Assembly (NCBI GenBank): GCA_920105625.2
Contig: OV050030.1
Location: forward strand, 78,519,400-78,583,399
Source: Clusia tigrina
Taxonomy: Eukaryota > Arthropoda > Insecta > Diptera > Clusiidae
Length of the DNA: 64,000 nt
Direction of reading: 5' to 3'
The translations under genes and the position numbers were made by a program. Shown one piece after another: positions 1-46,901 of this stretch (the first letter of the stretch is position 1; each line of letters starts with the position of its first letter). The notes beneath the pieces were generated by a model. It searched no databases. It was given only the letters and a program-made list of their open reading frames with translations, and was not told the origin of the DNA.

Positions 1-24
1 AATGAATAGTATTTATGTATTTAT

Positions 25-188
25 TATTATGTAAACTTTTAGGGTGTTACAGTTCCGCATTCGAGTCGACGATGGGCATTGGAATTTAGAATGCACCATC
101 GACATTTTTACAGTAAAGTAGATCAGTTGGCTTGACCAACCGACACCAATGCGAAACTGGAACACCGGAAAGGTGACTGTAATTGCTT
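25..188 (+). repeat. Partial Ty3/gypsy LTR (5' part only)
   Basis: This stretch closely repeats the 5' half of the LTR at 732-1066: the block from ATGTAAACTTTTAGGG through GTTACAGTTCCGC, TCGAGTCGACGA, the GGCTTGACCAAC motif and the GGAACACC..GAAAGGT motif occur in the same order. The later LTR parts (TATA box, poly(A) signal, tRNA primer site) are missing, so it is a truncated LTR of a related copy rather than a functional one. Its left edge is uncertain because only 24 bases lie before it. Confidence 0.7.
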
Positions 189-731
189 TTCGTAAATCTA
201 CTCGTATATATATAAAAGAAAGTGTCCGAAGCGATGTAATCCCATAACTCGAGATTGGCCGAACCGATTTTGATGATTTGTACTTTGTTGGAAAGGTATT
301 TCTCAGTATGGGTTTAAAAAAAAAAGTCGAAAAGAACTGTCAAAAACCAAAACTTCAAAATGTATTATTTTGACCATCCAGCGTGTTACGACTGGTTTTT
401 TTTCGATTTTTTTCAATTTTTTTTCCATTTTGTATTTATTGATTTTATTTTGGCAACAACCAAAACAAGAATCAAGTTTGAATGTAACATATCGTATCAC
501 AATTGAACTGTCAGATAGACACGCAACGTAACGCCATCTGTGTCTATCAATGGAGAAGCCAATTTTGTTTCATTGTTGCGAGTTAGAAACAAGCTACCTA
601 CGTGTAGTTGACTCACAGCATCGACTCCTAATAGATGCCACACTCTGTGGGATTAGCATGTGCTAAAAATTATTTAAGAATAGAACATACTTTTAGGGTT
701 CAAGTTTTTTAAGCTAAAATGGTTTGTGTAA
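189..731. other. A+T-rich debris, possibly Helitron-derived
   Basis: No gene seen. The phrase ATAACTCGAGATTGGCCGAACC near 242-263 resembles text I associate with non-autonomous fly Helitrons (recollection, not proven). Near 513-549 a 9-bp inverted repeat (GATAGACAC / GTGTCTATC) flanks a 17-base loop. A long T-rich block occupies 400-432. Confidence 0.3.
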
Positions 732-1066
732 TGTTATTATGTAAACTTTTAGGGTATTACAGTTCCGCAGTCGAGTCGACGAGGGCAGCGTAATGCACCG
801 TCGCCACTTTTGTAGTAGGTCAGTTGGCTTGACCAACTGACACCAATTAGAAGGTGCGGAACTGGAACACCAGAAAGGTCAGTTCACAGACTGAGATGAG
901 CATTAAGAAATAGTATATAAGAGTTAGTATTCTAAGAATAAATGGCTTGTGATTTAAAAACTAAAAGTGTAATGTAGTGATTTTTCTAAAGAGTGTTTTA
1001 GGATTTTCAGCCACACGCGCACAGCAGAAGGACGTCTCGAGGACAACAAGGACACCACCCCCAACA
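732..1066 (+). repeat. 5' LTR of gypsy copy A (335 bp)
   Basis: Starts TGTTATTATG and ends CCCAACA immediately before a primer-binding site, giving TG..CA ends. An internal TATATAAG (914-921) and AATAAA (937-942) are the likely promoter and polyadenylation signals. The 3' half is matched with many differences by 10535-10701 (copy B), and the 5' half by 25-188. The start is the least certain edge; TGTAAAC a few bases further in is an alternative. Confidence 0.7.
914..942 (+). promoter_or_regulatory. LTR TATA box and poly(A) signal
   Basis: TATATAAG at 914-921 is followed 16 bases later by AATAAA at 937-942. The same pair is kept in copy B (TATATAAG near 10538, AATAAA near 10560), which supports function in the U3/R part of this LTR family. 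Confidence 0.6.
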
Positions 1067-1069
1067 TTT

Positions 1070-1093
1070 TGGCGCAGCCGGTAGGATCCAACG
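1070..1093 (+). promoter_or_regulatory. Primer binding site, tRNA-Ser type
   Basis: TGGCGCAGCCGGTAGGATCC directly after the LTR is nearly complementary to the 3' end of insect tRNA-Ser including CCA, the primer used by the 17.6/297 group of fly gypsy elements (family knowledge). The first 13 bases are identical in copy B at 10705. Confidence 0.8.
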
Positions 1094-2107
1094 TCGAGGG
1101 CCAGGAAAAGAGCACACCTACGCGGGAATCCACCAACAGGATAACCATCTCAAAGGAGTTCAATGGAGGGAGCAAAAATGGTGAGTATGCTTATAGTAGG
1201 ACATTTTAGTGTTTAAGTGAATTTTGTCGTCGATTCTTCGGTGGCCGTGTGGGCGCTTTTGCACTAGGTCAATTCGAAAGAATGGTTAACGGTCAGGTTG
1301 TATAGGTTTGTTTCACTAAGATTAGGCTCATATTTTTTCTTACTTCTTGTTTCAGCATTCTCGGGGGATGTGGGACGTGTCTGTTTATTCACGGATTTTG
1401 CGTTATTGAATTGCGAAGTTGTGTATACCGGTTGGTTTGGTTCGGAAAGAACGTGCCACGGTAAAGGGTTCGTACGGTTATGATAGAGGATTTTTGTTTG
1501 TTTGTCGGTGGGGACATTTATATGACTCAATTTATATTGTTTTGAAATCAAAATAAAGATTGATTTAAATATTTGGCATTTTGAGTTTAGGGTATTAGGA
1601 GAAGAGGTGCAGACAACACGTGTTGTTGCATCAAAGTTTGTGTAGCAATGTTGAAGAAAACATTTAAATGCTACTATTACGTGGCGCATACGTTACGGGT
1701 TTTTTTTTCTTAAATAGGGATTCAAATTTCCGGGAATGAATCAAGACATTTTTTGCCTGTAAATCCAATTTCGGTTTTTGCGAAATGGGAGGATTTTTGG
1801 GAGTATTAAAGTTGGTGATTGGATATGGGGATACATGTGAGGAAAACAAGGAGTATCTGTGAGGAAGTCAAGGACCAATTTGCATTGATGGAAGGACTTA
1901 ATGGACGCCGGTAGACAGCGGAACTTTGTGATGGAAAACAAGTATAGCAGAATATGTATATAAAGATAGAAATTACGGTGGAATGTTTTTTTTAATAACT
2001 CTGTTTTGAATCATTAAGTAAGATAGAATAAAATATTGTAACAAGTTTTAACAATTTTGGATTTTTATTTGTAATTAGGATACGCCATCTGTTCTGGCAT
2101 TTGGGAT
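1094..2107 (+). other. Long 5' leader of gypsy A with candidate intron
   Basis: About 1 kb without a credible gene. A strong 5' splice donor (ATG|GTGAGTATG, GT at 1181) follows the primer site, and TTTTTATTTGTAATTAG|G ends at 2078 just upstream of ORF1, so 1181-2078 may be spliced out. Copy B keeps the donor (AAG|GTGAGTAATG at 10809) but has lost the AG at the matching acceptor near 15068. Short ORFs in both strands here look like chance. Confidence 0.45.
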
Positions 2108-3166
2108 ATGACGAAGGAAGCGCAAGGATTACTGCTGAGGCAGGAGCAAATTGGCGAAGCGATTGAAAAACTGGTCAGTAGCTTTAAGAAAGACGGCAGG
2201 TTACGTAAGGACAACCGCAAGCGAATAACACAGTTGCAAAATCTGGGGAGAGAGTTCAACAATAATCACGGGCTTTTGCTGCCTCACGCAGTTGAGTACG
2301 GCAAGGGAAAATATTTTGTGGAAAATTACGCAGACTACATAAATAGTCTGGTCAACGAATGGGCAGATACATTTAGTTCTGAATTAGAGGGACTAGGACA
2401 AGAGATTGTGAGTTTTGTTTCGCCAGACGAGGAAATAAGGAACAGATTGAAATCAATACAGTCAGAGGTGAAACTGTTTACTGGGAAAATAGTTGACCAG
2501 TTCGAAGCGAGTACGAGCAGGGAAGAAGCTCAGGAATTGTGGAGGCAGGCGAACGCCGGAGGAGCTGTGTCACCATTAGAAGTAGCGGATCAAGCCTTGA
2601 CGGCAATCCAAAAAAGGACAGAAGAAAAGTTGTTCAAATTTCATGAGAAAACAGAAGATTTGAGAGCACAAAAAGAGCATCTCGAGAATAGGGTAAAGGA
2701 ACTTTCTCGGAGATTGACGGAGACAGAGGAAGCAGCATCGCTGTTGGAAAAGGAGTGTGCGGAATTAAAAAAAGGACGGGCGACCAATAGGTCCTCACTG
2801 AATAGGGAGAGATCAAAATCAGCATCGGCTGGATTTACACAGACGGTATTGACATTGCCACCGGAAGTGCGCTGGCTGGAGTATCTAACACCAGAAGAGA
2901 TAAACCGCGTGGTAAAGCCCAGGTTAGTATTGAGTGAAGAGAGGGAAGCGGGATTTTTGTTTGGTGCATCTGAAATCGGTGTCGAGCCTTTTTCTCCAGA
3001 ACGTCCGATAACTAATAAAAATAAGGGATATCCGCCAAAAGAGCCAGAAGCAGTAACGTTACAGGAAAGTCCCAATACTATGGACAGTATTTCGCCTGTA
3101 CGAACAAACGATCTAATTAGTTTGAGTCCGTCATTGGTCAATTACCTCTCAGATCCGGGGAAGTGA
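2108..3166 (+). CDS. Gypsy ORF1: coiled-coil protein upstream of Gag
   Basis: A 352-aa charged protein preceding the Gag core in a separate frame. It has long heptad-like helical stretches (about residues 100-225, rich in E, K, L, A, Q), then a Ser/Thr/Pro-rich tail with the motifs GFTQTVLTLPPEVRW and EIGVEPFSPERP that are conserved in copies B and C. I see no zinc finger or enzyme motif. In copy C the equivalent ORF ends one base before the Gag ATG, so the separate-ORF layout looks like a family trait, not a frameshift in A. It could be the N-terminal, coiled-coil part of a split Gag. Copies B and C share long identical blocks with it (for example SREEAQELW and the VADQALTA region), though their N-termini diverge. 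Confidence 0.75.
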   Translation: MTKEAQGLLLRQEQIGEAIEKLVSSFKKDGRLRKDNRKRITQLQNLGREFNNNHGLLLPHAVEYGKGKYFVENYADYINSLVNEWADTFSSELEGLGQEIVSFVSPDEEIRNRLKSIQSEVKLFTGKIVDQFEASTSREEAQELWRQANAGGAVSPLEVADQALTAIQKRTEEKLFKFHEKTEDLRAQKEHLENRVKELSRRLTETEEAASLLEKECAELKKGRATNRSSLNRERSKSASAGFTQTVLTLPPEVRWLEYLTPEEINRVVKPRLVLSEEREAGFLFGASEIGVEPFSPERPITNKNKGYPPKEPEAVTLQESPNTMDSISPVRTNDLISLSPSLVNYLSDPGK

Positions 3167-3225
3167 ATCTAGGAACCACCCATAAAGATAGCGCTCAAGT
3201 TTTACCGGTCATAAATAAAACTAAA

Positions 3226-3828
3226 ATGGGTATAGAGGAGATTTCAAAGTCAGTGGCCAGGTTAGTACCTGTGTTTACTGGTGCAGCCTCAGAAGATTTA
3301 CGGTCAGAAGTTAACAGATTCATTCAAGGTTGTGAGCTGGCAAAGCGAAGCATAAGCCCTGATGAGTTGCAGGACTTCTTCGACTGTGTTAAGCAAAGGA
3401 TATTTGGAGACGCGTACAACCTTGTGTTGCCAAAGCAATTCGCCAGTGTGGACGAGCTTTACGGTCTTATAAGGAGAACTTATCTGAAGGAGAGAACTTT
3501 GGACGACATAACCCAAGAAATAAGAATCGGGAAGCAGCTGGCAAGTGAAGACATACGTGCCTTTGTCAGGCGTTTAGAGTCACTTCAGATGATGGCCCAG
3601 GAAATAATCAGGGATAAGTACAATGGCATTGGAGATACAGCGTTATTACACGAAGTTGACGAGTCGGTGTTGACAACTTTCGTGGTGGGGCTCCGCAACT
3701 CGGCTCTAAAGATTCATTTGCTGAATAGCAGAACAGGATCTCTGGAGGAATTAGTAGAAGAAGCGATGAGAGCACAAGTTCTCGTGGAACGGAGTACGGC
3801 TGGATTAGGCGAGGTACACAATTTGTAA
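3226..3828 (+). CDS. Gypsy Gag core (capsid), truncated by stop
   Basis: Start chosen at the ATG of MGIEEISKSVARLVPVF because the same methionine is present in copy C (51517). Motifs such as RSEVNRFIQGCELAKRS, LVLPKQFASVDELYGLI and TYLKERTLDDI are the alpha-helical capsid region of Ty3/gypsy Gag (retrotransposon Gag domain). The frame stops at 3826-3828, before the zinc knuckles; comparison with copy C indicates that the stop or frameshift is a lesion. The product would assemble virus-like particles in the cytoplasm if intact. The frame is open a little upstream, to 3163, but without a usable ATG. Confidence 0.8.
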   Translation: MGIEEISKSVARLVPVFTGAASEDLRSEVNRFIQGCELAKRSISPDELQDFFDCVKQRIFGDAYNLVLPKQFASVDELYGLIRRTYLKERTLDDITQEIRIGKQLASEDIRAFVRRLESLQMMAQEIIRDKYNGIGDTALLHEVDESVLTTFVVGLRNSALKIHLLNSRTGSLEELVEEAMRAQVLVERSTAGLGEVHNL

Positions 3829-4381
3829 AATAGACAGGGCATGTTCACCGCTGCTGTCGTGAATAGAGATGGAAGTAATTATGTCCCAAACATATACAGA
3901 GGAGCATATAATCCCGGTGTCTCCGACAGCAGAGCGGCGAATCCGAGAAATCCGTACAGGGGGCAAACACATGTTCGTTCTGCCGTAAGCAAGGTCATAC
4001 AAGGGATGAGTGCATTACACGCAAAAACACGCCCTACTGTATGGAGTGCCAAACATATGGTCATGAGGCAAATAGCAGAGTAAAAGGCAGCCAGCTACGA
4101 AGCGCCCGGTTCCACCCTTGAGGGACAGCAGGGGTAACTTCAGTAGTCCCAGAGTTAATTCAACAGAAGGAATTAACCAAGGAAGAAATCCTTTCCAAAC
4201 TGGGAGTGGTCAGCAGCGACCAAATTGGAATTCCAGAAGGGAACAAAGGATAAGCAACACCAAACAGGGGTTAAGTTGCTTCTCATGTGGACAGATGGGA
4301 CATCGGGCAGCGGAATGCAGGGATAGACAATCCCAACAAAGGAACCAGGGAAACTTACAGCGGCCCAGTCGAGGCCAATAG
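3829..4381 (+). pseudogene. Gag nucleocapsid remnant, three zinc knuckles
   Basis: Read across two or three frameshifts, this stretch encodes CSFCRKQGHTRDEC (about 3973-4014), a second knuckle starting CMECQTYGHE (about 4036) and CFSCGQMGHRAAEC (about 4276-4317): CX2CX4HX4C knuckles typical of retroelement nucleocapsids that bind genomic RNA. The second knuckle has lost its last cysteine relative to copy C (SRQC). Only the third lies in an open frame with an ATG (4118-4381, 87 aa). Broken relative to a working Gag. Confidence 0.75.
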
Positions 4382-4524
4382 ACTGGAAAGCCAAAAGAAA
4401 AGAAGTAATAATAAGGCCGGAAGTACGTGGGACTAGTAATGTAGGAACTACAATCCAAAAAAAGAAGGAGGAGCAGGAGGCTCTCCAGTATCACGAAGAG
4501 TTAGGGAGTGGATACACGTCCATA

Positions 4525-5130
4525 TTGGGAACAAAAGGACGTTGCTTCGCTATGAGCAGGATAGGTGATGCCTTCATCGAGATGCCCTGCGAGGAGGCAC
4601 TGAGTGGAAAGCTAGTGCTATTAATAGATTCAGGGGCGGACACTAGCCTCGTAAAATCTAGTGTTTTACGGAAGGGGCTAGACATTAATCAAATGGACTT
4701 AAGAACGCTTAACGGAGCGTTCGGAGGGTGCATTAGGAAATTGGGGTCGCTCAGAATACGGCACAGTGGAGTTAAGGGTATGAGTTTTAGAGTGCACGCA
4801 GTGGAAGTGGATAGGAAAGATATCCCGGCTGATGGGATAATTGGCCGCGATAATCTTTGGGGACGCACCACACTGGATGCGCTCGACAAGCAGTTATCAT
4901 TCTATGATAATAATAAGAATAGAATCCTTACTCTTCCATTAATGATATGGCAGGAAGGAACCGTGAGTAAGGTTAAGAATCGTATGGAGGTAGTGAATGC
5001 AAGGTCAACCAGAGTAGTTACTATGCATGTAAACACGAAATTTAGGACTCTTCTTTTGCACAAGCAGCAGCTAGCGGAGGGCGTATATATGGGAGAAACC
5101 ATAACGCACGTTCACAAGGGTAAGGTGTAG
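4525..5130 (+). CDS. Gypsy retropepsin (aspartic protease) fragment
   Basis: A 201-aa open frame with the catalytic motif LIDSGADTSLV (about residues 33-44), a flap-like region and the second conserved IIGRDNLWG box (about 113-121), the usual retropepsin arrangement. It would cleave the Gag-Pol polyprotein. Upstream, Gag-Pol continuity is lost. Downstream, after the HKGKV motif, about 260 bp present in copy C (the linker of about 56682-56940) has been deleted, creating the stop at 5128-5130 and separating PR from RT. Confidence 0.8.
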   Translation: MGTKGRCFAMSRIGDAFIEMPCEEALSGKLVLLIDSGADTSLVKSSVLRKGLDINQMDLRTLNGAFGGCIRKLGSLRIRHSGVKGMSFRVHAVEVDRKDIPADGIIGRDNLWGRTTLDALDKQLSFYDNNKNRILTLPLMIWQEGTVSKVKNRMEVVNARSTRVVTMHVNTKFRTLLLHKQQLAEGVYMGETITHVHKGKV

Positions 5131-5150
5131 AGCATGAGATACCTAGTAGA

Positions 5151-6458
5151 GTGGACCAAGCGCCAATTAACCAGAAACAGTACAGATTGCCACAAGCTCA
5201 CAAAGATGAGGTAAATAGGCAAGTGGAAGGAATGTTAAAAGATAACATAATTTCACCAAGTATCTCGCCTTGGAACTCACCAATAATTTTGGTACCAAAG
5301 AAGGGAGGTGCTCAGGATCAGAAGAAGTGGAGAAGGGTCGTCGATTTTAGGAAATTGAACGACGCCACTATCAAGCAAGTGTTCCCAATTCCAAGGATAG
5401 AAGAAATTCTGGATCAATTGGGGCATAGTAGATATTTTTCTACGCTTGATTTAGTGAGTGGCTACCACCAAGTTCTGGTGGATACCCAAGATAAGCAGAA
5501 AACCGCGTTCAGCACCGGTTTAGGGCATTATGAGTTTAATAGAATGCCGTTTGGATTAACAGGAGCACCGGCTACCTTCCAACGGCTAATGAACCATGTG
5601 CTAACAGGCTTACAAGGGTTAGATTGTTTTGTGTATCTGGATGATATTGTAATTTATGGGAAGAACTTGCAGCAGCATTCGCAACGCTTGTGCAAGTTGC
5701 TCCAGAAATTACGAGAACACAATTTGAAATTGAACACGGAGAAGTGTCAATTTTTGCGAAGAGAGGTGGTTTATTTAGGCCATCGTTGCTCAGAGGCAGG
5801 AGCACTGCCTGACCCGCAGAAGGTGGAATGCGTTAAAAATCTAGCGATTCCGAGAAACAAAAAGGAAGTGCAAGCATTCCTAGGACTAGTGAACTATTAT
5901 AGAAAGTTCGTGGAAGGACTAGCCGGAATTGCGTTGCCAATTAATAAGTTGCTACGTAAAGAAGCAAAGTTCGAATGGACAGAGAGATGTCAGCAAGTAT
6001 TCGAGAGGCTAAAAGAAATAATTAGCTCGCCACCAATTTTGGCATACCCCGACTTTGAGCAAACTTTTTTGTTGTCCACTGATGCTAGCAATGAAGCATT
6101 AGGGGCAGTATTGTCACAACGGGAAGTCGGTAATGACAGACCAATAGCATTCTCCAGCAGAGCGCTTAGCGACACGGGGAAAGGATACTCCACAACAGGA
6201 AAGGAATTTCTAGCCATAGTATGGGCTACGAAGAATTTTAGGGCATATCTAGTAGGTCACTCATTTAAGATATACACTGATCACCAGCTGTTGAGAGGCA
6301 TAGCCAATTTGAAAGACCAAACGTCTAGGCTAGCCAGGTTCAGACACAAATTGTCTGAGTATGATTTTGAAATCATATACAAACCCGGGAAGAAGAATCT
6401 GAAAGAAATCACAGAAGGTATCTGTAGTACAAACGAGGGCCAAAGCACGGTCAGATAA
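5151..6458 (+). CDS. Gypsy reverse transcriptase-RNase H
   Basis: A 435-aa open frame holding RT motifs in order: SPWNSPIILVPKK, VVDFRKLND, the motif-A aspartate in YFSTLDLVSGYHQV, GLTGAPATFQRLM, and the catalytic YLDDIVIYG (about residue 162-170). RNase H follows with [17 protein letters not shown], the GKEFLAIVWA helix and TDHQLLRGI. It copies the RNA genome to cDNA in the particle. The frame ends early: relative to copy C, the tether after YKPGKKNL lacks the N-A-D-A-L-S-R type motif, through a small deletion followed by a stop. The start is simply the first ATG after the PR-RT deletion. Confidence 0.88.
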   Translation: MDQAPINQKQYRLPQAHKDEVNRQVEGMLKDNIISPSISPWNSPIILVPKKGGAQDQKKWRRVVDFRKLNDATIKQVFPIPRIEEILDQLGHSRYFSTLDLVSGYHQVLVDTQDKQKTAFSTGLGHYEFNRMPFGLTGAPATFQRLMNHVLTGLQGLDCFVYLDDIVIYGKNLQQHSQRLCKLLQKLREHNLKLNTEKCQFLRREVVYLGHRCSEAGALPDPQKVECVKNLAIPRNKKEVQAFLGLVNYYRKFVEGLAGIALPINKLLRKEAKFEWTERCQQVFERLKEIISSPPILAYPDFEQTFLLSTDASNEALGAVLSQREVGNDRPIAFSSRALSDTGKGYSTTGKEFLAIVWATKNFRAYLVGHSFKIYTDHQLLRGIANLKDQTSRLARFRHKLSEYDFEIIYKPGKKNLKEITEGICSTNEGQSTVR

Positions 6459-6481
6459 GGAGAAGGCCGAGAGAAAAACGG

Positions 6482-7599
6482 ATGCTACAAGAGATGTTAG
6501 CAATGCGGGTTTCGATGCCAATGAGCAAACAGCCAGTAGTGTGGAATGGCTGGAGGATAAAAAAGATATCCAGGCTGTGTTTCCATGATTCACCTTTAAG
6601 TGGACACCAGGGATTCTGGAAAACCCATGACAGAATTAGGCGAGTATACGGATGGAAAGGTATGCTCAAGGACATTAAAAAATATATAAAGAGTTGTCCA
6701 AAATATCAGGCCAACAAAAGTTCAAGGCTGACAAAGATGCCAATGGTGTTAACTGACACACCGAAACAGCCATTTGATAAAGTTCATATGGATAATGTAG
6801 GTATTTTACCTGAGACAGTTTCGGGAAACAAGTACATATTGACGTTCCAAGATGATTTCTCAAAGTATATGGCGTGCGTGGCTATACCCGATGCTCAAGC
6901 AGGTACGGTGGCCAAGGCATTCTTTGATGAAATAATAGCACGATACAACATACCTAAGGTTTTGATAACCGACAATGGTTCCAATTTTGTATCAAAATTA
7001 TTCTCTGAAACTTGTAAAATGCTGGGAATCAAGAAGTTGCACATAACACCATATCATCCACAGGCGAATGGCACATTGGACCGTAGTCATCGACCTCTGG
7101 CCGAGTACTTGCGCAGTTTTGCCAAAGAAGACGGCTCGAATTGCTATCAATGGTTGACCACTGCAATGCATGTACACAATAATACGGTACATGTATCAAC
7201 GAAGCAAACTCCGTTCAGGACGCTCTACGGGTTTGATTTTAACATGCCAGCAAATCTGAAGCGCAAATGTGCGCCAGTGTACAATGCTGATGACCCGAAT
7301 AAAGTGCAAAAGTATCAGCTACAGCGAGCGCACGAGTTGGTCAGAGAAAACCAGGATCGTGCTAAACGAGTAGCTAGGGAAGCCTATAACAAGGTACTAA
7401 ACCCAACCGTTTTTAACGTGGGTGATCAAGTACTAATGAAGAATCAGGCTAGGAGAAACAAATTCTCACCTGTATGGATAGGTCCGTATGTAGAGCAGAG
7501 ATCCGAAGCCCAGTTACAACAGTCGTAACGATTAAGGGCAACAATAAAAAGCTACATAATAATTTGTTGAAATTATTCCACATTAGACCACGCGACTAA
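6482..7599 (+). CDS. Gypsy integrase
   Basis: Open to 7528 (348 aa), then a frameshift; the ancestral frame ends with a conserved LLKLFHIRPRD tail at 7599. The zinc domain (SGHQGFWKTH ... SCPKYQ) has lost one cysteine (CPKY for the usual CPKC). The core has the first Asp in HMDNVG, the second in ITDNGSNF, and NGTLDRSHR where integrases normally have a Glu (LERSHR), so the third catalytic residue reads Asp; copy C has the same change. The C-terminal part has the GDQVLMKN...PVWIGPYV chromatin/DNA-binding box. The frameshift near 7490 makes the C-terminus aberrant. Confidence 0.85.
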
Positions 7600-9677
7600 A
7601 GACATGTGTTAATAGTGTTTTACAAATGTTAACACAAGAGTAACAATGTAAACATATACGTGTGTGTATCAAATAACACACGCAGCGCCGATTTTCAGAG
7701 TCAATGCCAGTAAAAGTGTGCCGCTTAAACTCGGGCAAGTAAAATTGACGTAATGAAAATCTGCACTATTGCCGAATGAAGACAGTAGAGAAAAATATAT
7801 TTTTTTTGTACATATAAAATAATAATAAACGGGTTCATTGCACGTATTTAAAAAATAAAATAAAATAGTAAGACAGTCGTGGGTAAGTAATATAAAACTT
7901 AACATACATACATACGGCGGTTAATGAAATGAAAGCAGTAGCGCCGGCACCGTTGGTGAAGTAAATATATATGTATGTAACTGTAATGTACAGAATGAAT
8001 GTACGAGGGAATATTTAAAGAAGTAAGTATTCTAGTTATAGGAATGGGTATGTCCATATAAGTAAGTATGTAGGGACATATGATTAGGAATTGGGAATTT
8101 GCAGATACTGCAGCAGGCTATATGTAGATATACGAGTACATAGGTTTTAACTGTTTATTGATTAGGAAATTAGCGTATGGAAATTTGAAAAAATGTATAG
8201 TTAAATGGGGAAAATAACGTTAGCAATTAATTCTAGGTTCCCTTGAATGTATGTATGTATTCATATACGAGCTAATTATAGGATGGAAAATACAATCGTT
8301 AATGGATATATACATATCAGGCTAGAAGTAAATTTAAATAAAAAGTAATTGTATGCAATGAAAAGTTCAGTCATGCAATGGACAAATTTTTATCTTCTAT
8401 AATCTTGTTTTTGTAGGAGGAGCAAAGGGATGTGCTTGAAATTTAAATGAGTGACAACTCACATTGGAAAGAAAAGCATGGAAAAATTTTAAACAAAGCA
8501 AAACTGATGCCCTATATAGCTATGAAAACACATAGTTCAGTCCTCTTTTCCTCCAGGATACGGTAGCGAATCCGATAATGTAAGGGGAGAAGACGAGTGG
8601 ACGGCAAATTGAATGATATAGCATTCAATTATAAAAAAAGCATGTTGTAGAAATATTGTTTTTTGTTTATATATTCAGGAATAGCGTATGTTTAAGAAAA
8701 GGTTAAAAAAATTATAATCTGAGTAAAAGTTCAGATTGAAATTAAAGGTAGTTTAGAAAATATTTAGAGTTACAAAAAATTAATTATTTAAAATCAAACT
8801 TTATAATGAAATAAGTGTTATAATAAAAAAAAAAACAAAAATCATACTAAATTGGAAAATTATACCCAAGAGTATATATAGTACATATATTGTATTTATT
8901 TAAATATTATATAATTTTGAAATTCATTTATTAAATTGACATTTATTGTTCGACAAAAATTAAACATAGAAGAAATATCAAATTAAAATGTATACTAGAA
9001 AAATAAGAAAATTATTATAGCTGTTCTCTATATAGCTCTGATGATGTGGAGCGAAGCAGGAAGTTCCGGGAACAGCGGATATCGGAATACGGTGCGGACT
9101 AAAAGACCAACGTAGTATTCGGAAAGATGCGTTTTTGAAAAACAGGGATTTTTGGCAGCTATCCAAGGTTTGGGAATCCGGTTGTGACCGCAAGGATGCG
9201 AATATATTGGATTGGGGATGAATGGTGACGGATTTGTTTTTCCTTGCGAAACGGCATATTGCCGCAGCATTTGAACGCGTTGTGGATGAGTAATTGACGA
9301 GTTACGAAAAATAAGCCAGTTTCCTTGCGGAGTCATGTTTTGAATTGGACAATTTTATATTACAATGTCCACCCATTGTATCACAATCTCAACAGAATCG
9401 ATTTTGGATAAGTTGAAGATGGGTAAAAGCTTAAGGTGGGTGACTGAAACCACCACCAAATATAATAAGCAGAAGAAATTTGGCTCACGGAAGTTAATTG
9501 CTTCATTGAAGTATATGTCCAATCTAGAGTATGAACATATGGAATGTTATTTACATATGTATGAAATATGATTTAATACAAGAGGACACAGAGACGTTTG
9601 CCGGCCAATGCGCATTACAGATTCGGATTTCTTCATTGCGATTTGGTGAGTTTCTGTGAATTAAAATTGATAACGAA
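7600..9677. other. Non-coding tail of gypsy A and unassigned A+T-rich DNA
   Basis: 7600-7960 matches 59463-59860 in copy C (GTGTGTATCAAATAACACAC block, CATACATACGGC, GGTGAAGTAA), so it is gypsy 3' non-coding sequence. Beyond about 8000 I find no similarity to other parts of the window, no LTR and no gene. A short G-rich stretch 9040-9340 has a 102-codon minus-strand frame whose product I do not recognise; I do not call it. Confidence 0.5.
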
Positions 9678-10534
9678 AATATATAGTAGAACTAGCGGAT
9701 CCCGTTGCACTTCGATGGATTATTTTCATTTCATTTGAACAGTGGCGATAGAGCGATTGAGGCATTTTGCGAATTTGTTCTGTGATGCATTGTTGGTTGG
9801 CTATTGGGATTTGTCTGTAAGAAGTGGTACGTTTCTATTGTTGTTAAATTGTTTTCAAATTTTCTCTTCGGGATTTCATTGTATTGCAGTTGTTCTTTAT
9901 AATGCCACCAACGAGAAGATCTAATTTAGGCCGACGTTCAGCTGGTGCACGAGCAGTGTCGACCCATCGTGCGAGTATGAGTCAAGAAGATAGAAACATT
10001 GCGCAACAACGAAGAAATGCAAACCACGTCCAAATTCGTGCGCAAGAAACAGAAGAACAACAGCAAGCGGTAATCGATTCGCGTAGATTGGCACAACAAA
10101 ATCGTCGATTAAATCGATCTGGAAATTTATCGACGCAAAGTCGACGAATAAATAATCAAAATAGACAAGAAAGAAGAAGTGCTGGCAATGACAATTTGCT
10201 TCGAGTAGCATTCCGATATGATTATGCATTCGATTATCGATCTCTTCCTGCCGTTCAAATTGGATCAATGGCTGTAGTATGTCCACATTGCAACACATTG
10301 AAATTTCCAGGAGAAACACCTGGATTGTGTTGCCTTAGTGGAAAAGTTAAATTGCCAGCATTGCCATCGCCACCGGAACTAAACAACAAAAAATATAGTG
10401 TATCACAAAGTAGTATAAAGTATCGAATAAAGAGGATAGTTTGCTAAGAAAATTTTTTATTTAAGAAAATAATTTATTTAATGTTTAGTTTAATGGAATG
10501 TAAATTTTTTTTGTTAAGTCCTCCGGGCCACTAA
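9678..10534 (+). mobile_element. Truncated Helitron
   Basis: The left part starts near AACTAGCGGATCCCGTTGCACTTCG, wording I associate with insect Helitron 5' ends (recollection). The body encodes the N-terminal segment of a Helitron Rep/helicase protein, and the right edge reads GCCACTAA followed by T, which fits the CTRR end and A|T insertion rule. The right flank (TAGTATATAAGAG) is gypsy B LTR, so the Helitron sits in or replaced that LTR. Rep catalytic (HUH) and helicase domains are absent, so the copy is non-autonomous. The 5' TC terminus cannot be identified. Confidence 0.65.
9902..10447 (+). CDS. Helitron Rep/Hel N-terminal fragment
   Basis: Start taken at MPPTRRSNLGRRS (an in-frame ATG lies 18 bases upstream). 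The 181-aa product has a basic, Q/R-rich N-terminus with repeated RR/QNRR pairs and then the cysteine module VCPHCNTLKFPGETPGLCC followed by SGKVKLPALPSPP, the signature of animal Helitron proteins just before the Rep domain. The frame ends soon after, at SIKYRIKRIVC, where the Rep HUH nuclease and PIF1-like helicase should follow. It cannot support rolling-circle transposition alone. No neighbouring fragment of the missing domains was found in the window. Confidence 0.75.
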   Translation: MPPTRRSNLGRRSAGARAVSTHRASMSQEDRNIAQQRRNANHVQIRAQETEEQQQAVIDSRRLAQQNRRLNRSGNLSTQSRRINNQNRQERRSAGNDNLLRVAFRYDYAFDYRSLPAVQIGSMAVVCPHCNTLKFPGETPGLCCLSGKVKLPALPSPPELNNKKYSVSQSSIKYRIKRIVC

Positions 10535-10701
10535 TAGTATATAAGAGCTAGTATTTTAAGAATAAAGTTGGCTTGTTGTTTTTAAACTAAAAGTGATGTA
10601 GTGTTTTATTCTAAAGGGTGAATTTAGGTTTACAGGTACTCGAGCGCCAGGACAAGCAGCAAGAGGACCTCTCCGAGGGCAAACAAATACGGTCCCCAAC
10701 A
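10535..10701 (+). repeat. 3' part of gypsy B LTR
   Basis: Aligns in order with the second half of the LTR at 732-1066: TAGTATATAAGAG, TAAGAATAAA, GGCTTG, AAACTAAAAGTG, CCCCAACA. It ends just before the shared primer site. The U3 part is lost at the Helitron boundary. Confidence 0.7.
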
Positions 10702-10704
10702 TTT

Positions 10705-10718
10705 TGGCGCAGCCGGTC
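10705..10718 (+). promoter_or_regulatory. Primer binding site of gypsy B, tRNA-Ser type
   Basis: TGGCGCAGCCGGT follows the LTR end by three bases, identical to copy A over the first 13 bases and complementary to the tRNA-Ser 3' end. The match with tRNA decays afterwards (CTTAAGG in place of AGGATCC). Confidence 0.7.
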
Positions 10719-10868
10719 TTAAGGACCTACAGGAGGAATCCCAGGGAAAGGAACCCTGAAGCAGGGAAGCATCCTGCAACAAATTCGAAGGACCCTAAAC
10801 AATATAAAGGTGAGTAATGTGAATGTATAGTAGCGTAATTTAAGTAGATATTTCTGCGACCCTGAAGG

Positions 10869-10873
10869 CGCCG
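10869..10873 (+). repeat. Target site duplication CGCCG (left)
   Basis: CGCCG precedes the left CACAGTG and recurs at 14056-14060 after the right CACTGTG, an exact 5-bp direct repeat. Confidence 0.9.
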
Positions 10874-10906
10874 CACAGTGGGTTAGAATAGCCTGTTTTC
10901 TTGGAT
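10874..10906 (+). repeat. Transib left terminal inverted repeat
   Basis: Begins CACAGTGGGTTAGAATAGC and continues to TTCTTGGAT; the reverse complement of 14023-14055 is the same except position 20 (C here, A there). CACAGTG equals the consensus RSS heptamer. I see no clear nonamer at a 12- or 23-base spacing. Confidence 0.92.
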
Positions 10907-10960
10907 TAATTAAAAAAAAAAAATTTAAGTATCGTTAAAATTTTTTGCACCCGGTTACAG

Positions 10961-10968
10961 TATATAAA
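10961..10968 (+). promoter_or_regulatory. Transib TATA box
   Basis: TATATAAA lies about 90 bp inside the left end, with TCACTTG about 10 bases further on as a possible start region. The transposase ATG is 0.8 kb downstream, so a long 5' UTR or an unseen intron is likely. Confidence 0.45.
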
Positions 10969-11776
10969 ATTCTACATCACTTGTCGTTAAAATAAATGTC
11001 AAAAGTGCTCTGGTGTTTTTGTAGTGAAACTTCAAAGTCAAACTTCATAGAAATTTTTGTGCAAAAAAGGCTGAAAAAAGTGAAAACGTTCCCGTTGAAA
11101 ATTTTATTTATTTTAAAAAGTATTGTAAAAGTTAAAAATTTTTCAATGGAACCATCAAGTTCAGGTTATTTTGCAAATACTTCGTTAACATTTGTGTATC
11201 AAATTGTGTGTGGAAGTGATTTAGATTTAGTTATTTATATTGAAAATGCCAAAAAAATTAATATTTTTATATTTTAAATGGATATATAGTTATTATTCGT
11301 CCACATTCGTGTCATAATTTGTAGTTTATATTAAAGAGGACATAAATCTGTGTTATATTGCAAAATTTTACGCTGCCCTTTTGTGCCTTTTAGAAGCCAT
11401 GCATTGTTTAATACAAGTGTTGCAGCAGTCAAATTAGCTAAAAGTCACATTGATCTCGCGACTGGTGCTGTTGTTGTGTGTTGTGTTTTGTTGTTTTTCA
11501 TGTTACTTTTTTCTATTTATTTGTGCTCTTCTTTTCCGTATATTAATGTTGTTATTTTTGTTTCTTTTAATAATATTCTTTGTTACAATAATATTTTGTT
11601 TTTGTTTATTTTAATAATATTCTTTGTTTTGACAAATAGTGATTGTGTTGTGCAGTTTCAAGTAATCGGGTAAAAGGGATTTTTGAAAGGTTTTTTTTTG
11701 TATTAGCATTATTTTTTTTTTTATAGAAACAAGTTCGAACGTTGTTTTTTATACTCGTCGAAGCTTATTTGATATT

Positions 11777-13831
11777 ATGATGAATTCAAGCGCTCAAACA
11801 ATGAATGACAAGATGACATTTTTAGCTGAAGAAATCAAAAAACGCACCAACTGCTCTGAGGATAATATGTGTGATTTAAATAAAAGAATTGATGTTTTCT
11901 TTTATGAATTTAAATCTAGGTGGACTAGAGCGCATAGAATTGAAATGAGGTTTATTACTCAAAATAAAATCTGGTTGGAATCCTCTATTGGTTTTACTCT
12001 TGCCCCGACTGCAAAATGTGGTCGAAAAGAAATTAGTTTTACCGAGTCCAGTGGTTGGAGTAAATATAAAAAAACAAAGATTGTAAGAGACATCATGTCA
12101 TTGCCAGAGTTACTTTACGCTTCACAGGTTAAATTACAAAGCGAAGGTTATGTCGAGGAATCAAAAGTGTTGCGAGCTATATATGAAAAGTGTTGCAAGG
12201 GAATAAATTTAAGAAAAAAATTTAAACAACCACTTCCCACCTTGAAAATATCGAATACAAAAGCTTTGGCTGTTTTTGTAGAAGCTAAACTAACACGAAA
12301 TCAATACAATGTTGTTAGACAAGCTGCTCCTCAAATATTTCCCTCCTACAACAATATTCAAACTGAAAAACAAAAAACTTACCCAGAATCGACCAGCTTT
12401 AAAATAAGCGAGACCTCCGTTGAAGTAACTTTACAAAGTCTTCTTAATCACACAGCGGAGCGACTAATAGAACTTCAAGAAACTGTTATTGACTCATTAG
12501 GCATTACGAACTCGAATGTAGTATTATATTCAAAATGGGGCTTTGATGGAAGCTCTGGCCATAGCTCATACAAACAAGCCTTTCATGGATCGGATGCTAG
12601 TGATTCATCAGTTTTTTTAACCACAATTGTTCCACTTAGGGTTATGTTTGAGGAGAAGGTAATTTGGCAAAATCCACGACCGTCTTCAACTAGATTTTGC
12701 AGACCCTTGAAAATTGAATTTGCCAAAGAAACCGCATATGTGTCCATTAGTGAAAAAAAAAGAGTTGAAGAGGAAATACAGAATTTAACCTGTTCAACTG
12801 TCACGATTGGTGAGAAAGTTGTACATGTTTCCCACAAATTAATTTTGGCAATGGTAGATGGAAAAGTTTGCAATGCCTTAACAGAAACCACATCAACACA
12901 AAGGTGTTACTTATGTGGCGCTACAAGTAAGGATTTTAATAATATAGAAGCCATGATCCAAAGACCTGTACATGTAGACAATTTAAAATTTGGCCTTTCC
13001 ATTCTTCATGGCTGGATTAGATTTTTTGAATGTCTTTTGCACGTGGCATATAAAATACCTTTACAAAAGTGGCAGGCTAGAACTGATTCTGAAAAAAGAA
13101 CAGTAGCTGAAACAAAAAAAGAAATTCAGAATAAATTTAAAGAGAATATGGGATTAATAGTTGACCAACCCAAACCTGGTTTTGGAAACACGAATGATGG
13201 GAATACGGCAAGACGTTTTTTCCAAAACGCTGATAAATCTGCCGAAATAACAAAAATAGATGTTAATTTAATAAAAAAAATGCACGTGTTGCTTATTGCT
13301 GTATCCAGTGGCCATGAAATTAATAATGAAAAATTTAAAATATATGCACACAATACAGGACAACTTTTTGTTGAAACGTATCCTTGGTACAATATGCCTC
13401 CCACTTTGCACAAGTTTTTTATTCACGGACCCGAAATTGTGTCAAATGCCCTTTTACCTATTGGGCAGTTATCAGAAGAAGCGCAAGAAGCTCGAAATAA
13501 AGATTTTAAAAAATATAGGGAGTTTCATTCCCGAAAGTGCAGTCGCGAAAAATCAAACCAAGACATTTTTAATATGTTTTTGATAACCTCTGACCCAATT
13601 ATTTCAAGCATGCGAAAATTGCCTGCAAAGAAGGTTCAAAGCTTGCCAGAGGAGGCAATTGATTTAATTGTACCTGCAGCTCCGAACAAGAACTATTTCA
13701 GTGATGTTGAAGTTGCTGATGCTGCGGATGATGATAATGATGATAATGATGATGATGATAATGATGATGATGATAACGATAATGATGATGATGATGATGA
13801 TAATGATAATGATGATGATGTGGATGATTAA
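11777..13831 (+). CDS. Transib transposase (RAG1-core related)
   Basis: 684 aa with no lesion; the first of two adjacent ATGs is used. The RNase H-like DDE recombinase cuts at CACAGTG ends and joins them to G+C-rich targets in the nucleus. Visible landmarks, matched from memory to RAG1 core: catalytic Asp257 in KWGFDGSSGHS; an acidic position at Glu318 in CRPLKIEFAKET, opposite the RAG1 D708/E709 region; zinc pair Cys377/Cys380 in RCYLCG; His545 and His550 in LHKFFIHGPEI, the same spacing as the RAG1 zinc-binding histidines; catalytic Glu567 in LSEEAQEARNK, opposite RAG1 E962. Length is in the usual Transib range. The last 40 or so residues are an Asp/Asn run encoded by a GAT/AAT microsatellite, which is unusual. 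No RAG2-like partner lies nearby, as expected for Transib. Confidence 0.93.
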   Translation: MMNSSAQTMNDKMTFLAEEIKKRTNCSEDNMCDLNKRIDVFFYEFKSRWTRAHRIEMRFITQNKIWLESSIGFTLAPTAKCGRKEISFTESSGWSKYKKTKIVRDIMSLPELLYASQVKLQSEGYVEESKVLRAIYEKCCKGINLRKKFKQPLPTLKISNTKALAVFVEAKLTRNQYNVVRQAAPQIFPSYNNIQTEKQKTYPESTSFKISETSVEVTLQSLLNHTAERLIELQETVIDSLGITNSNVVLYSKWGFDGSSGHSSYKQAFHGSDASDSSVFLTTIVPLRVMFEEKVIWQNPRPSSTRFCRPLKIEFAKETAYVSISEKKRVEEEIQNLTCSTVTIGEKVVHVSHKLILAMVDGKVCNALTETTSTQRCYLCGATSKDFNNIEAMIQRPVHVDNLKFGLSILHGWIRFFECLLHVAYKIPLQKWQARTDSEKRTVAETKKEIQNKFKENMGLIVDQPKPGFGNTNDGNTARRFFQNADKSAEITKIDVNLIKKMHVLLIAVSSGHEINNEKFKIYAHNTGQLFVETYPWYNMPPTLHKFFIHGPEIVSNALLPIGQLSEEAQEARNKDFKKYREFHSRKCSREKSNQDIFNMFLITSDPIISSMRKLPAKKVQSLPEEAIDLIVPAAPNKNYFSDVEVADAADDDNDDNDDDDNDDDDNDNDDDDDDNDNDDDVDD
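13722..13828 (+). repeat. (GAT/AAT)n microsatellite coding an acidic tail
   Basis: Imperfect GAT repeats with interspersed AAT/AAC in the transposase frame give an Asp/Asn tail up to the stop codon. The shifted plus-strand frame reads as a Met/Ile run and is not a gene. Confidence 0.85.
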
Positions 13832-13915
13832 CTTTAAGATGTATAAAATGTAATGTTTAAGTTCTCATACTGTACTCCTTGCACTATATACCTACACTGA
13901 TATTTGGCATTACTT

Positions 13916-13921
13916 AATAAA
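13916..13921 (+). promoter_or_regulatory. Transib poly(A) signal
   Basis: AATAAA 85 bases after the transposase stop, well inside the right end, the first such signal after the ORF. Confidence 0.6.
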
Positions 13922-14022
13922 ATTATACTCAAATATACTTAGAAAACATTTTTTTTTACTTATTTTAATGGTATTAACTGAAAAATAAAGAAAAATTATC
14001 CTAACATAGCTTCCCTGATTTG

Positions 14023-14055
14023 ATCCAAGAAAACATGCTATTCTAACCCACTGTG
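14023..14055 (-). repeat. Transib right terminal inverted repeat
   Basis: Reads ATCCAAGAAAACATGC ... CCCACTGTG on the plus strand; 32 of 33 positions match the left repeat in inverted orientation. The copy of the CGCCG duplication follows at 14056-14060. Confidence 0.92.
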
Positions 14056-14060
14056 CGCCG

Positions 14061-15170
14061 TAGGGCTGGTCAAAGAAGTCGCAACATATAGGTGCGTTTG
14101 CGCTGTTGCACGCAACTTTGTATCGGCAACCATAAGCCGTCAGTATGATCGGACGGTCTATGTCGTCCTAGCTGTGAGGATTTTTTTTGTAGGGTAATCG
14201 AGTTGATAGGGACATTTATATTGTTTTTTTAAATTGTTTTAATTATTTGACACTGTATGCTTAGGGTATTAGGCAAAAATACTTCAAGAAGTGTTTACAA
14301 CACGGGTTGTTGCGCCAAAGTTTGAGTAGTTCCGAAACTACGATTTGCCGAAAACAAGAGAAAGAAAATATTTACTTAATATTTTGCACGGAAAAGCAAA
14401 ACAACTCAACAAAGCATTTTACTGAAATGGGGATGTGTCAGTAGTGCAACAATTATTTTTTGTGTTTGGAAATTTAGTTTGATGGAGAGAAAAATATGAA
14501 GAATAATTTCGTGAAACCAATAACATTGTCAAAATGGGTTCATAGAAAAATAGTAACAAAATCGTAAATATGTATTGTTTTAAATAATCTGTATTTACCT
14601 TCAGTAGCTGTGCAATTAATCAAGTATAATTTTTATACTTACGATTTGCGTAGCAATATTGAAGAAAAAATTTAAATGCTATTAAACGTTGCGGGTTTAT
14701 TTTTGAATATGGATTCAAATTTCCGGGAATGAATCAAGACAATTTTGCCTGTAAATTTCGGTTTTTGCGAACATATATTCTTTTCTATGGATTTTTGGGA
14801 TTATTAAAGATGGTGATAGGAAATCAAGGAGTATCTGTGAGGAAGTCAAATACCAATTTGCATTGATGGAAGGACTTAATCGACGCCGGTAGACAGCGGA
14901 TATGGAACTTGGGATGGAAAATTAGTAACGAAAGAATATATATTAAGATAGAATTTACGGTGGAATGTTTTTTAATAAATTTGTATTTAATCATTAAGTA
15001 AGATTGAATAAAATATTGGAATAAGTTGATAACAAGTTTTAAGAACTATTTGGTTTTATTTGTAATTGGGATACGCCATCTGTTCTGGCATTTGGGATGA
15101 ACAGATGGATGGAGATTTTTCCTTGAGATTGGGTTGTTCAACGGGATATTTATTGAATTAGACATAGTCT
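14061..15170 (+). other. Leader of gypsy B resumed after the Transib
   Basis: Matches the copy A leader in blocks (GGGACATTTATAT, TTAGGGTATTAGG, GATTCAAATTTCCGGGAATGAATCAAGAC, GACGCCGGTAGACAGCGGA, TTTACGGTGGAATGTTTTTT) and copy C from about 14937 on. No gene. Confidence 0.7.
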
Positions 15171-16102
15171 ATGGGACTCTCGAAAGAATAGAAGGAGTTG
15201 CTGAAATCCCAGGAAGTGGTGGGTAATGAGGTCCAGAGGTTGATTTCAAACTTCAGGAAGGACCGGAAGGATGTCAAAAACGTAAAGTACTACCACAGTC
15301 GCATCACAGAGTTGCGAGGCTTGGTGGAAAAATTTAACAGAAACCACGCAAAATTTCTGCCGCACAAGGAGGTCTGTAGGGACGACGAGTACTTTGCGAC
15401 GGGTTTTCATGGATATGTGGAAAATTTAGTGTCAGGGTGGCTTAAAGTATTCGAGACGGAATTGGCAACGATTGGGGCACCGAGTGGGTCCCCATTAAAA
15501 AGAAAAGAAGTCGCACAGGACGAGCTAAGAGCAGTAAAAATAGAGGTGAATCTTTTCACCGAGAGGGTATTCGAGCAGTTCGAAGCAACTACGAGCAGGG
15601 AAGAAGCTCAGGAATTGTGGAAACAGGCGAACGCCAGAGGAGCTGTGTCACCATTAGAAGTAGCGGATCAGGCCTTAACGGCATTCCAAAAAGGGACAAA
15701 AGAAAAGTTGTTCAAGTTTTATAAGAAAACAGAGGATTTGAGAGCACAAAAGGAGTATCTGAGAATAATGTAAAGGAACTTTCTCAGAGATTGACGGAAA
15801 CAGAGGAAGCAGCAGCGCTGTTGGAAAAGGAGTGTGCAGAATTAAAAAGAGGAAGCACGACCAATAGGACATCACCGAAAAAGGAGAGATCAAAATCATC
15901 ATCGGCTGGATTTACACAGACAGTATTGATATTGCATCCTAAAGTTCGCTGGTCGGAATATTTAACACCAGAAAAGTTAAGCCGTATGGTAAAGCCAAAT
16001 TTTTTTTTTAGTGAAGAAATTCAAGCGGAATTTTCTGAAATCGGTGTCGAGCCATTTTCTCCGGGAAGTCCGATAAATAATAAAAATCAGGGATATCCGC
16101 AT
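15171..16102 (+). pseudogene. Gypsy B ORF1 (coiled-coil protein), broken
   Basis: Equivalent of 2108-3166, closest to copy C. The natural ATG (MGLSKE) is followed by a TAG where copy C has GTG, so translation stops after seven codons. The frame is then open 15198-15776, shifts, and continues 15791-16102 with TETEEAAALLEKECAEL and EIGVEPFSPGSP. The sequence ends in the junction with the Jockey fragment, so the ORF1 C-terminus and all of Gag-Pol are missing. Confidence 0.8.
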
Positions 16103-19681: not shown

Positions 19682-20639
<958 letters not shown>

Positions 20640-30757: not shown

Positions 30758-31664
30758 TAGGGTTGCCAGACGGGCCTGATTTGGCCTGATTGTCAAGTTT
30801 TTAATGCGCGTCAAGTGTCAAGTGAAAAAGTGATTTGTCAATGTTTTTTGTAAGTTAATTTTTTTTCTCAAATTTATTCTAGCTACATATGTAATAATAC
30901 TTAAAAAAAGTAAGTTTATATTTCTAAAAAACACATCGAAAGAGCATATTTTTACTATCAATACAACTAAGGACTAATATGATACATATTTTTTTCTGTG
31001 CAATTATAATTTTAAAAATATAGTTCTCTTTAGGTATGTACAATTATAATAAAAGTGCCAACACTGATATTTACCCCATTACTCAACACTGGTAAATTGA
31101 CAACATTGAACAGCTGAGTTGCAATACGTACATTGAAGTTTTTGGAAATAAAAAGTGAGTTTATATTTTTGTTTGTTAATTTGTTTTAACGAGTATATTA
31201 TTTGCAGAATATTCTATTGTGATACGTTGGATTAGTGAAAATATAACAAAACTGCTAGAAGGTAACGAAGATGCTGGACCATCAAAAAAACCAAGATATA
31301 CTGTTTACTTGGATAGATGGCATGTGGCACCAAAATATTCCAATTTGTCATAGTATAGAAAGATCTGGCATCACTCAAAAACATGAATTACAAAATGGAA
31401 GTGTGGCAATCACATGAATGAGACCAACGATTGCATCAGCCAAACTGAAGTAAAATCAACGTGCTTTTTTCATAAGAAAATCTTGACTACCTTCTATTAA
31501 ATAAACATATCTATAAGTATACATTTAAATATATCCTTGTTTTATTAACACTATAACACAATTGGATACAAAAGAAAGATTAATACACTGCAATTATAAA
31601 TTATAAATTATGTCAGACAGAAATTTCAATAAAATATGAAGGGAGCTGGGCATTAAATAGACAT

Positions 31665-32330
31665 ATGAAAACTAAAAAACATGCCAAAATCGTATTGTCG
31701 CAAAAAATGTACCGGAGCATTTCGAAATTCACTGTTTCAGCAGAAACTACAATTGAAACACAAATTGCACGGGCTGAACTATTATGTGTATTTCATAACG
31801 TATTACACGGCCTCAGCTATAACAGCTTAGATTGCCAAATGAAAATGAGTTCTACTATATACTGCGAAAGTAAAATTGCCAACAAAATAACATGTGGACG
31901 TACAAAATCATCAGCTATAACAAGAAATGTTTTGGGTCCATATTCGCAGGAAAAAGTTGCTAAAGCCTTAAAAAAATGTTTGTATTATTCCGTAAGTGGC
32001 GATGCTTCAAATATCGGTAACGTAAAAACCTATCCGTATGCTGTACAATATTTTGATCCCGAAACTGGGATACGTAAACAAATTTTAGATTTTTACGAAG
32101 ATCCTGATGAAGCATCTAAGGATATATTTGGTAATATTATTAGAATTACAAATGTTAATAAATTAAAAATTGAACAAATTACATCGTATAGTGCTGATAA
32201 CGCAAATGTTAATTACGGTTTATATAATTCTGTATTTCAAAAACTTAAAAATGAAAATAGCCAAATTATAGAAGCAAATTGCAATTGCCATATAATTAAT
32301 AATTGTATAAAAATGCTCTTAACGCTTTAA
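31665..32330 (+). pseudogene. hAT transposase, N-terminal part
   Basis: 221 aa from the first ATG, but the frame is open upstream, where LCQTEISIKYEGSW and LNRHMKTKKH look like a degenerate BED-type zinc finger, so the true protein probably began earlier. The catalytic-domain blocks YSVSGDASNIGN (first Asp), SYSADNANVNYG (second Asp) and ANCNCHIINNCIK are the normal order for hAT transposases of the ZMYM/KIAA1586-like type. The frame is lost in an A run near 32310, one base short relative to the downstream frame. Confidence 0.85.
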
Positions 32331-33289
32331 CTGTTGACGTCGAAAACATTGTAATCAAAATATATAATGAATTTAGCTCTTCGGCTGGGACTACAAACAA
32401 ATTAAAACAATGTTTTGAATTTGCAAACATCGAGTACAAAAATCTCCTTCGACATGTGCCTACAAGATGGCTTTCACTTCTGCCAGCAATTGACCGTTTG
32501 TTATATTGTTGGTCGGCAGTAAAAAGATATTTTCTACAGAAAGGCAAGAAAAATTGTCGAAAAGTTCTTTGGGAATTCGTAGCACATGCAATTTCCGACA
32601 TAGAACTTACAAATGAAGATGTTGAATGCACAATTGAAGGTTTATCCGAGGCATATTTATATTTCATTCATAATGTGATGCACGAGTTCCAAGCTGCTAC
32701 ATTAGTTTTAGAAAGTGACTCCTGCACAATTGTAGAACTACATAACGTAATGGCCAATCTTATGAACAGTATTCAAAGCCGTATGAATGATAATTTTTAT
32801 GGAAGCAAAGTTGCTACAATTATGAAATCCCTTTCCCCTGATGAAATAAGTACTTTCAAGTTCGAAGCAAATGAGTTTCTTAAGAGAGCTACCAGTTATT
32901 TAGCTGAACGGTATGATTTTGGAGAAACATCAATATACAATCAAATTTCCTGTTTAAATATAAAAAAGTACCTTCTGACTTGGAATAAGCTGTTAGAGCT
33001 TCCGAAATTATTAGGTATTTCAAATGACATTGACAATGATAAACTGTATGCCGATTACTGTGTTCTTCGAGAAGTTTACGATATTTTACCAAAAGATATA
33101 CCAAATTATAGAATATGGTCATATTTTTTCAAAAAGTGTGCAGAAAGCAATCTTCAAAATTTAAAAAAGTTGATCTCATTTGTGTTTTCTATCCCAATAA
33201 GCAATGCCTTTTGTGAAAAAGCATTTAGTGTTCTAAATAATTTATATACCAAAGATAGGAATAGAATGTCCTTCGATCTAATAAAATAA
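32303..33289 (+). pseudogene. hAT transposase, C-terminal part
   Basis: 328 aa continuing the preceding frame after a one-base shift (ALNALTVDVENIVIKIY onward). It contains the hAT motif HVPTRWLSLLPAIDR with the conserved RW and, at its end, the dimerisation region SIPISNAFCEKAFSVLNNLY with the catalytic Glu. There is no internal stop. A single indel is the only obvious lesion besides the uncertain N-terminus. Confidence 0.87.
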
Positions 33290-34064: not shown

Positions 34065-34492
34065 TGTAATAAGCCACTGTTAAATTAAGAAAAATGCAGC
34101 TCTGAAATGATGCAGCTCTCGTATCTTTATTACCTTTTATACTATAATTATTATACTTACGTCAATCATACATTATGCATTTATATGTCAATTCTGCTTT
34201 ACATCCGGAAATTCTTTTTCTTTTAAACATATCTTTCGTAAAAAGCAGAAGTAGTTGCGCATAACTTGCGTCATATTTTCATAAATGAAAAGCTGATGGT
34301 TTGAAACCAAAAAGTAAGAGTTAATATACTTTACTTATATACAATTTCTTTAATCAATTAACTATGTATTATTTTAAGGAATTAAAACATAAGGTTGCGT
34401 CACAAGTTGACAATAAAGAAATAATTGCATTTCACTGAAATTAACCTGTGTTGAAAATCAATTCAAGCCATCACGAGCTACTGTTGCGGACA
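34065..34492 (+). repeat. BEL LTR 1
   Basis: TGTA...GACA, 428 bp. AATAAA at 34412-34417. Its first 13 bases (TGTAATAAGCCAC) differ from TGTAGCCGCCAC in LTR2 and LTR3; the rest is nearly identical. Confidence 0.85.
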
Positions 34493-40228: not shown

Positions 40229-40267
40229 GAGTATGACTTCGAGAGCCTCTCGTCATACTGCAGGGGG

Positions 40268-46896: not shown

Positions 46897-46901
46897 TAAG
46901 T

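Follow-up and report, generated by a model that had tools for sequence, protein, structure and literature searches.

Transib transposons share ancestry with RAG1, the enzyme that assembles antibody genes, and a Transib copy in the clusiid fly Clusia tigrina raises the question of whether it is a complete and autonomous transposon and how far its ends and its protein resemble those of the RAG system. The copy lies in a stretch of 64,000 nucleotides (contig OV050030.1, positions 78,519,400 to 78,583,399, forward strand), called here the window, whose own coordinates are used throughout. Judged by its anatomy, its homology and its undamaged reading frame, and in agreement with the predicted fold of its protein, the element is very probably an intact, autonomous DNA transposon of the cut-and-paste kind, within the HzTransib-like insect group. 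It is delimited by terminal inverted repeats (TIRs) and a target-site duplication (TSD):

10874..14055, + strand: whole Transib element, 3182 bp, with TIRs, TSD and transposase
10869..10873, no strand: TSD CGCCG, left copy, exact match to 14056-14060
14056..14060, no strand: TSD CGCCG, right copy, exact match to the left copy
10874..10906, + strand: left TIR, 33 bp, starting with the heptamer CACAGTG, 32/33 identical to the right end
14023..14055, - strand: right TIR, 33 bp, starting with the heptamer CACAGTG, found by repeat search and end comparison

The first-pass annotation had proposed a complete Transib with CACAGTG at both ends, 33-bp TIRs matching at 32 positions and an exact CGCCG duplication; the motifs, the repeats and the duplication were all recovered at the positions given, and the completeness of the element is borne out by its ends, its TSD and the undamaged transposase frame. 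With a chance match of 27% per position, the probability that a single pair of 33-mers agrees at 32/33 is about 1.5e-17, and the first 19 bases of the end, with up to 3 mismatches allowed, occur at two places in the window, which are the two ends of the element (0.02 expected). TIRs opening on a CAC heptamer and a GC-rich 5-bp TSD (CGCCG, twice) are the marks of a Transib, for which a preference for GC-rich targets has been stated (PMC8289069).

The same annotation had called the ends similar to recombination signal sequences (RSS), a description that holds for the exact heptamer and fails for the nonamer. The best nonamer match in the ends (6/9, either strand, spacers of 5-45) was equalled by 1352/2000 shuffles of the left end and 1803/2000 of the right. 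An RSS joins heptamer and nonamer by a 12/23-bp spacer; at spacers of 11-13 and 22-24 no match exceeded 5/9 in forward or 6/9 in reversed orientation. Since most shuffles reach such matches, the RSS resemblance ends at the heptamer. Most Transib families, HzTransib among them, are described as having symmetric TIRs and a heptamer with little or no similarity to the nonamer (PMC8289069), and some Transibs do possess nonamers (PMC8355894). Symmetry of the TIRs, a CTT2 tail and a ZnB that has lost its alpha11-alpha12 region have been assigned to Subgroup II Transibs (PMC9435367); the TIRs of the window element are symmetric, and Subgroup I Transibs are said to lack that symmetry (PMC9435367).

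The transposase is encoded by a single long open reading frame (ORF), on which residues are numbered:

11777..13831, + strand: 684-aa ORF from the ORF list, starting at an ATG inside the predicted protein
12230..13678, + strand: Transib/RAG1-type catalytic core, residues 152-634, by match to HzTransib
12545..12547, + strand: catalytic Asp D257, aligned with HzTransib D126
12857..12859, + strand: catalytic Asp D361, aligned with HzTransib D225
13487..13489, + strand: catalytic Glu E571, aligned with HzTransib E436 and RAG1 E962
12905..12916, + strand: predicted zinc ligands C377 and C380, Cys in 120/120 listed relatives
13409..13426, + strand: predicted zinc ligands H545 and H550, His in 118/120, gap in 2

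HzTransib of Helicoverpa zea has been characterised by biochemistry and structure (PMC6941560; PDB 6pqn, 6pqx and others); no other Transib came up among the PDB matches. It shares 207 of 472 aligned residues with the window transposase, and the match of its solved chain of 497 residues covers residues 152-631 in one comparison and 155-636 in another, with at most 17 chain residues lying beyond. Its catalytic triad is D126, D225 and E436 (PMC6941560); chain and protein numbers were taken to differ by 17, a shift derived from the triad itself, whose three residues all agree with it. By this alignment the predicted active-site triad is D257, D361 and E571. The conservation of these residues was assessed in relatives taken as the best 120 of 857 proteins passing the E-value, ranked by score, a sample that leans to intact proteins. 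The first-pass annotation was right about D257 (119/120, 1 N), both Cys (120/120) and each His (118/120, 2 gaps), missed the second catalytic Asp, D361, and placed the catalytic Glu four residues too early, at E567. The latter is a conserved Glu (119/120, 1 gap), but HzTransib E436 and RAG1 E962 align with E571, where 118 of the relatives have E, one has D and one a gap. In the full-length mouse RAG1 chain (6oem_A), E962 is the later of the two Glu in SEGNES (segment from 953), and its position aligns with E571 in the zebrafish chain alignment. The transposase is homologous to that of HzTransib and keeps the DDE and CCHH zinc residues, as expected of a Transib. A Pfam scan of the protein named no Transib family; RAG1 fell below the cut-off, and two weak matches in the acidic tail seem to reflect its composition.

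No stop or frameshift interrupts the 684 codons, in agreement with the lesion-free transposase first proposed; the protein as then delimited is probably incomplete at its N-terminus. Because the ORF starts within a conserved N-terminal domain, the full transposase is probably a product of 707 aa from two exons:

11146..11164, + strand: predicted exon 1, MEPSSS plus one base of the codon that follows, resembling the starts of relatives
11165..11726, + strand: predicted intron, 562 bp, GT...AG with a T-rich acceptor, proposed from the sequence
11727..13831, + strand: predicted exon 2 including the stop codon, giving a spliced protein of 707 aa
10961..10967, + strand: TATA-like box TATATAA, a possible promoter, by motif only
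13916..13921, + strand: AATAAA poly(A) signal, with a second at 13984, by motif only

The relative P0028 starts with MEPSSSGTSNKLLF (MEPSSSG-type) and P0004 carries, after some residues, MDPSTSGTMSNTFF (MDPSTSG-type); in the window, 11146-11164 holds ATGGAACCATCAAGTTCAG followed by GT, and a T-rich AG acceptor ends at 11726. Splicing of 11164 to 11727 would yield MEPSSSETSSNVVFYTRRSLFDIM and the 707-aa protein. The listed frames of P0002, P0006 and P0007 are apparently open through the same acceptor position.

Ahead of the core, and immediately before the DDBD as in RAG1 and in the RAG1-like protein RAG1L of ProtoRAG, lies a domain that resembles the RAG1 nonamer-binding domain (NBD), a resemblance that we hold with moderate confidence:

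12020..12193, + strand: RAG1 NBD-like domain (residues 82-139), helices preceded by GRK, for which most relatives have GRP

As a single sequence compared with the mouse NBD by hhalign it gave a probability of 0.2% over 14 aligned columns. A profile of the domain raised this to 2.1% against RAG1L, 5.5% against RAG1 and 12.1% against both, and the real score was matched by 3/200, 2/200 and 0/200 column shuffles, respectively. Foldseek gave RAG1 rows at E 4.1-7.6 and probability 0.30-0.41; Dps and other proteins in the same list had probabilities of 0.03-0.07 and one designed protein 0.38. The VIA alignment covered the 30 chains ranked top by Foldseek. Homology between the Transib and RAG1 NBDs has already been stated (PMC9435367), so it is not put forward here as a discovery; contrasting views hold that Transib has no identifiable domain other than the core (PMC4411706) and that the N-terminal region of RAG1 is present in no Transib (PMC8355894).

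At the opposite end of the protein the core is followed by an acidic extension:

13703..13828, + strand: acidic Asp/Asn-rich C-terminal tail, ~residues 643-684, mainly GAT/AAT codons, by composition, predicted local distance difference test (pLDDT) and tandem repeat

From residue 634 on, this tail comprises 51 residues with a net charge of -28, and it is predicted to be disordered (pLDDT <50 at residues 645-684). As its codons are mostly GAT and AAT, repeat expansion may have lengthened it in the window copy. Tails of at least 15 residues beyond the same point are present in 101 of the 120 relatives, and the net acidic fraction reaches at least 0.25 in 83/101 of them vs 10/5050 core windows of the same length, Asp being enriched 5.0-fold and Glu 2.2-fold over the core, and Lys and Arg reduced to about a fifth. 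The HzTransib structure paper reportedly describes a C-terminal tail; an acidic one has no mention for Transib among the literature matches listed or the passages searched. In vertebrates the acidic hinge of RAG2 restrains transposition. A similar role of the tail in the window Transib would be a guess by analogy, and we put forward with considerable doubt that the disordered tail could be a built-in brake or DNA mimic limiting target capture. It would then correspond, as an ancestral form within a single protein, to the acidic hinge of RAG2, and the HzTransib structures would have been made on a tail-less chain. The hinge together with the PHD of RAG2 inhibits target DNA binding (PMC11844651, preprint).

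The element has entered an LTR (long terminal repeat) retroelement:

10533..10717, + strand: piece from the LTR/leader start of the invaded LTR retroelement, 77% match to 909-1082
14645..16100, + strand: same LTR-element lineage, downstream part of the leader with the presumed gag region, by matches to the other copy

Both flanks match the other copy (909-3035) with order and strand preserved, 14645-15098 resembling 1637-2107 at 77% and 15542-16100 resembling 2464-3035 at 84%. Sitting inside that retroelement, the Transib is probably the younger insertion. Copies or pieces of this Gypsy-type lineage lie at ~1-7976, 10533-16101 and 50267-59860, 77-89% alike in the longer matches and broken by other insertions.

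Relatives covering at least 90% of residues 40-634 were counted as near full length. There were 114 of them among the 120, and 111 keep all seven DDE and CCHH residues, which contradicts the earlier statement that intact Transibs are few, in a sample favouring intact proteins. The nearest named relative among the matches listed, Rhagoletis zephyria LOC108364163 (P0003), is 64% identical over 87%, shares the GRK variant and falls into a clade with the window copy, P0002 and P0006 (support 94/76, just below the 95/80 mark); its annotated protein, from which alone it is known here, starts within the N-terminal domain. This relative agrees with the fly host assumed in the first-pass annotation. 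A search for relatives in viral contigs gave 3 pattern matches, none confirmed, and no match to the 19-base end; in prokaryote genomes it gave 71 pattern matches, none confirmed. Bacterial Transib-like proteins have been reported (PMC9435367).

Several observations weigh against an intact, autonomous element. C201T and A528G alter two otherwise near-invariant positions, the terminal branch is longish (0.56 vs a median of 0.33), the predicted splice donor, GTTATT, is weak, and the 19-base end search with up to 3 mismatches found no second Transib copy in the 64-kb window. A clean empty site was also not found: the LTR-element copy at 900-2110 lacks the Transib, and its leader is too diverged, with 26/60 identical columns at the left junction and 19/60 at the right. 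The changed residues, the branch and the missing second copy would all suit a copy that is complete but dead or silenced, either a fixed insertion with an open frame or one stopped by a subtle lesion such as C201T. This explanation, which overlaps with the reading as an intact copy, for which no present activity is claimed, has perhaps one chance in a few, its difficulty being the 684 uninterrupted codons, the perfect TSD and the TIRs matching at 32/33. The residue changes are also not exceptional: of the 107 columns with at least 95% conservation among the other 114 near-full-length rows, the window copy differs at 2, and 40/114 relatives differ at two or more. The protein looks constrained, in a pattern that fits selection until recently, and the window copy was probably active in the recent past.

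Constraint would be expected as well if the host had domesticated the gene and the ends were remnants, which we regard as highly improbable, since a domesticated gene would need no ends and the window element, lying within LTR-element sequence among other transposons, retains its two TIRs and its TSD intact. Least probable is a RAGL-type (ProtoRAG-like) transposon nearer to RAG1 than to Transib. The RNase H-type DDE core and the CAC heptamer are common to RAG1/RAG1L and the window element, and the NBD-like domain and the CACAGTG ends point the same way, but a profile of the family gives HzTransib 605.8 bits, against 50.6 for amphioxus RAG1L and no more than 38 for vertebrate RAG1. A further difference from RAG1/RAG1L is that the nonamer is not above chance. 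ProtoRAG carries a second gene, and membership in its group was rejected on the profile scores and on the missing RAG1L-RAG2L pair: no other listed ORF in the element exceeds 107 aa, which leaves no space for a single-ORF RAG2L (no search aimed at a partner of several exons was made).

For the intact Transib a mechanism can be proposed from HzTransib and RAG1. The transposase would bind the symmetric TIRs and nick at the CAC of the heptamer, the D257/D361/E571 site would close the flanking DNA as hairpins, and the excised element would be joined into a GC-rich 5-bp target, producing the CGCCG duplication; the insertion would have landed in the leader of the older LTR retroelement. By comparison with relatives, the NBD-like domain may bind the ends and the acidic tail may have a modulating role.

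Other features of the window were noted as well. Two tandem Pao-type LTR elements with a common middle LTR occupy 34073-46906 (40275-46906 vs 34073-40703, 99.91%; 46477-46906 vs 34073-34501, 98.8%), and are either a product of recent LTR-LTR recombination or an assembly duplication. At 54172-55218 on the - strand, 349 codons form an open mariner/Mos1-like transposase frame (Pfam Transposase_1) with HHYKAPAH in place of the usual HHDNAPAH, and this transposase may be dead. A 509-codon open frame among repeats (48739-50265) matches DUF7869 (E 2.7e-10), 31584-33286 holds two overlapping open frames, the second with a hAT dimerization domain, possibly a frameshifted hAT transposase, and a TA dinucleotide array of ~125 copies (97% matches) spans 19682-19930.

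The solved HzTransib chain lacks the N-terminal domains of the window copy, the NBD-like one among them, and has no long acidic tail. With full-length relatives as numerous as 114 of the 120 listed, the Clusia element is a good specimen and not a surprise, one suitable choice among others. An undamaged Transib that combines an NBD-like domain and an acidic tail with its own ends offers a natural system for probing the roles of both modules, and it may bear on how end binding by the NBD and restraint by an acidic segment arose before RAG1/RAG2.
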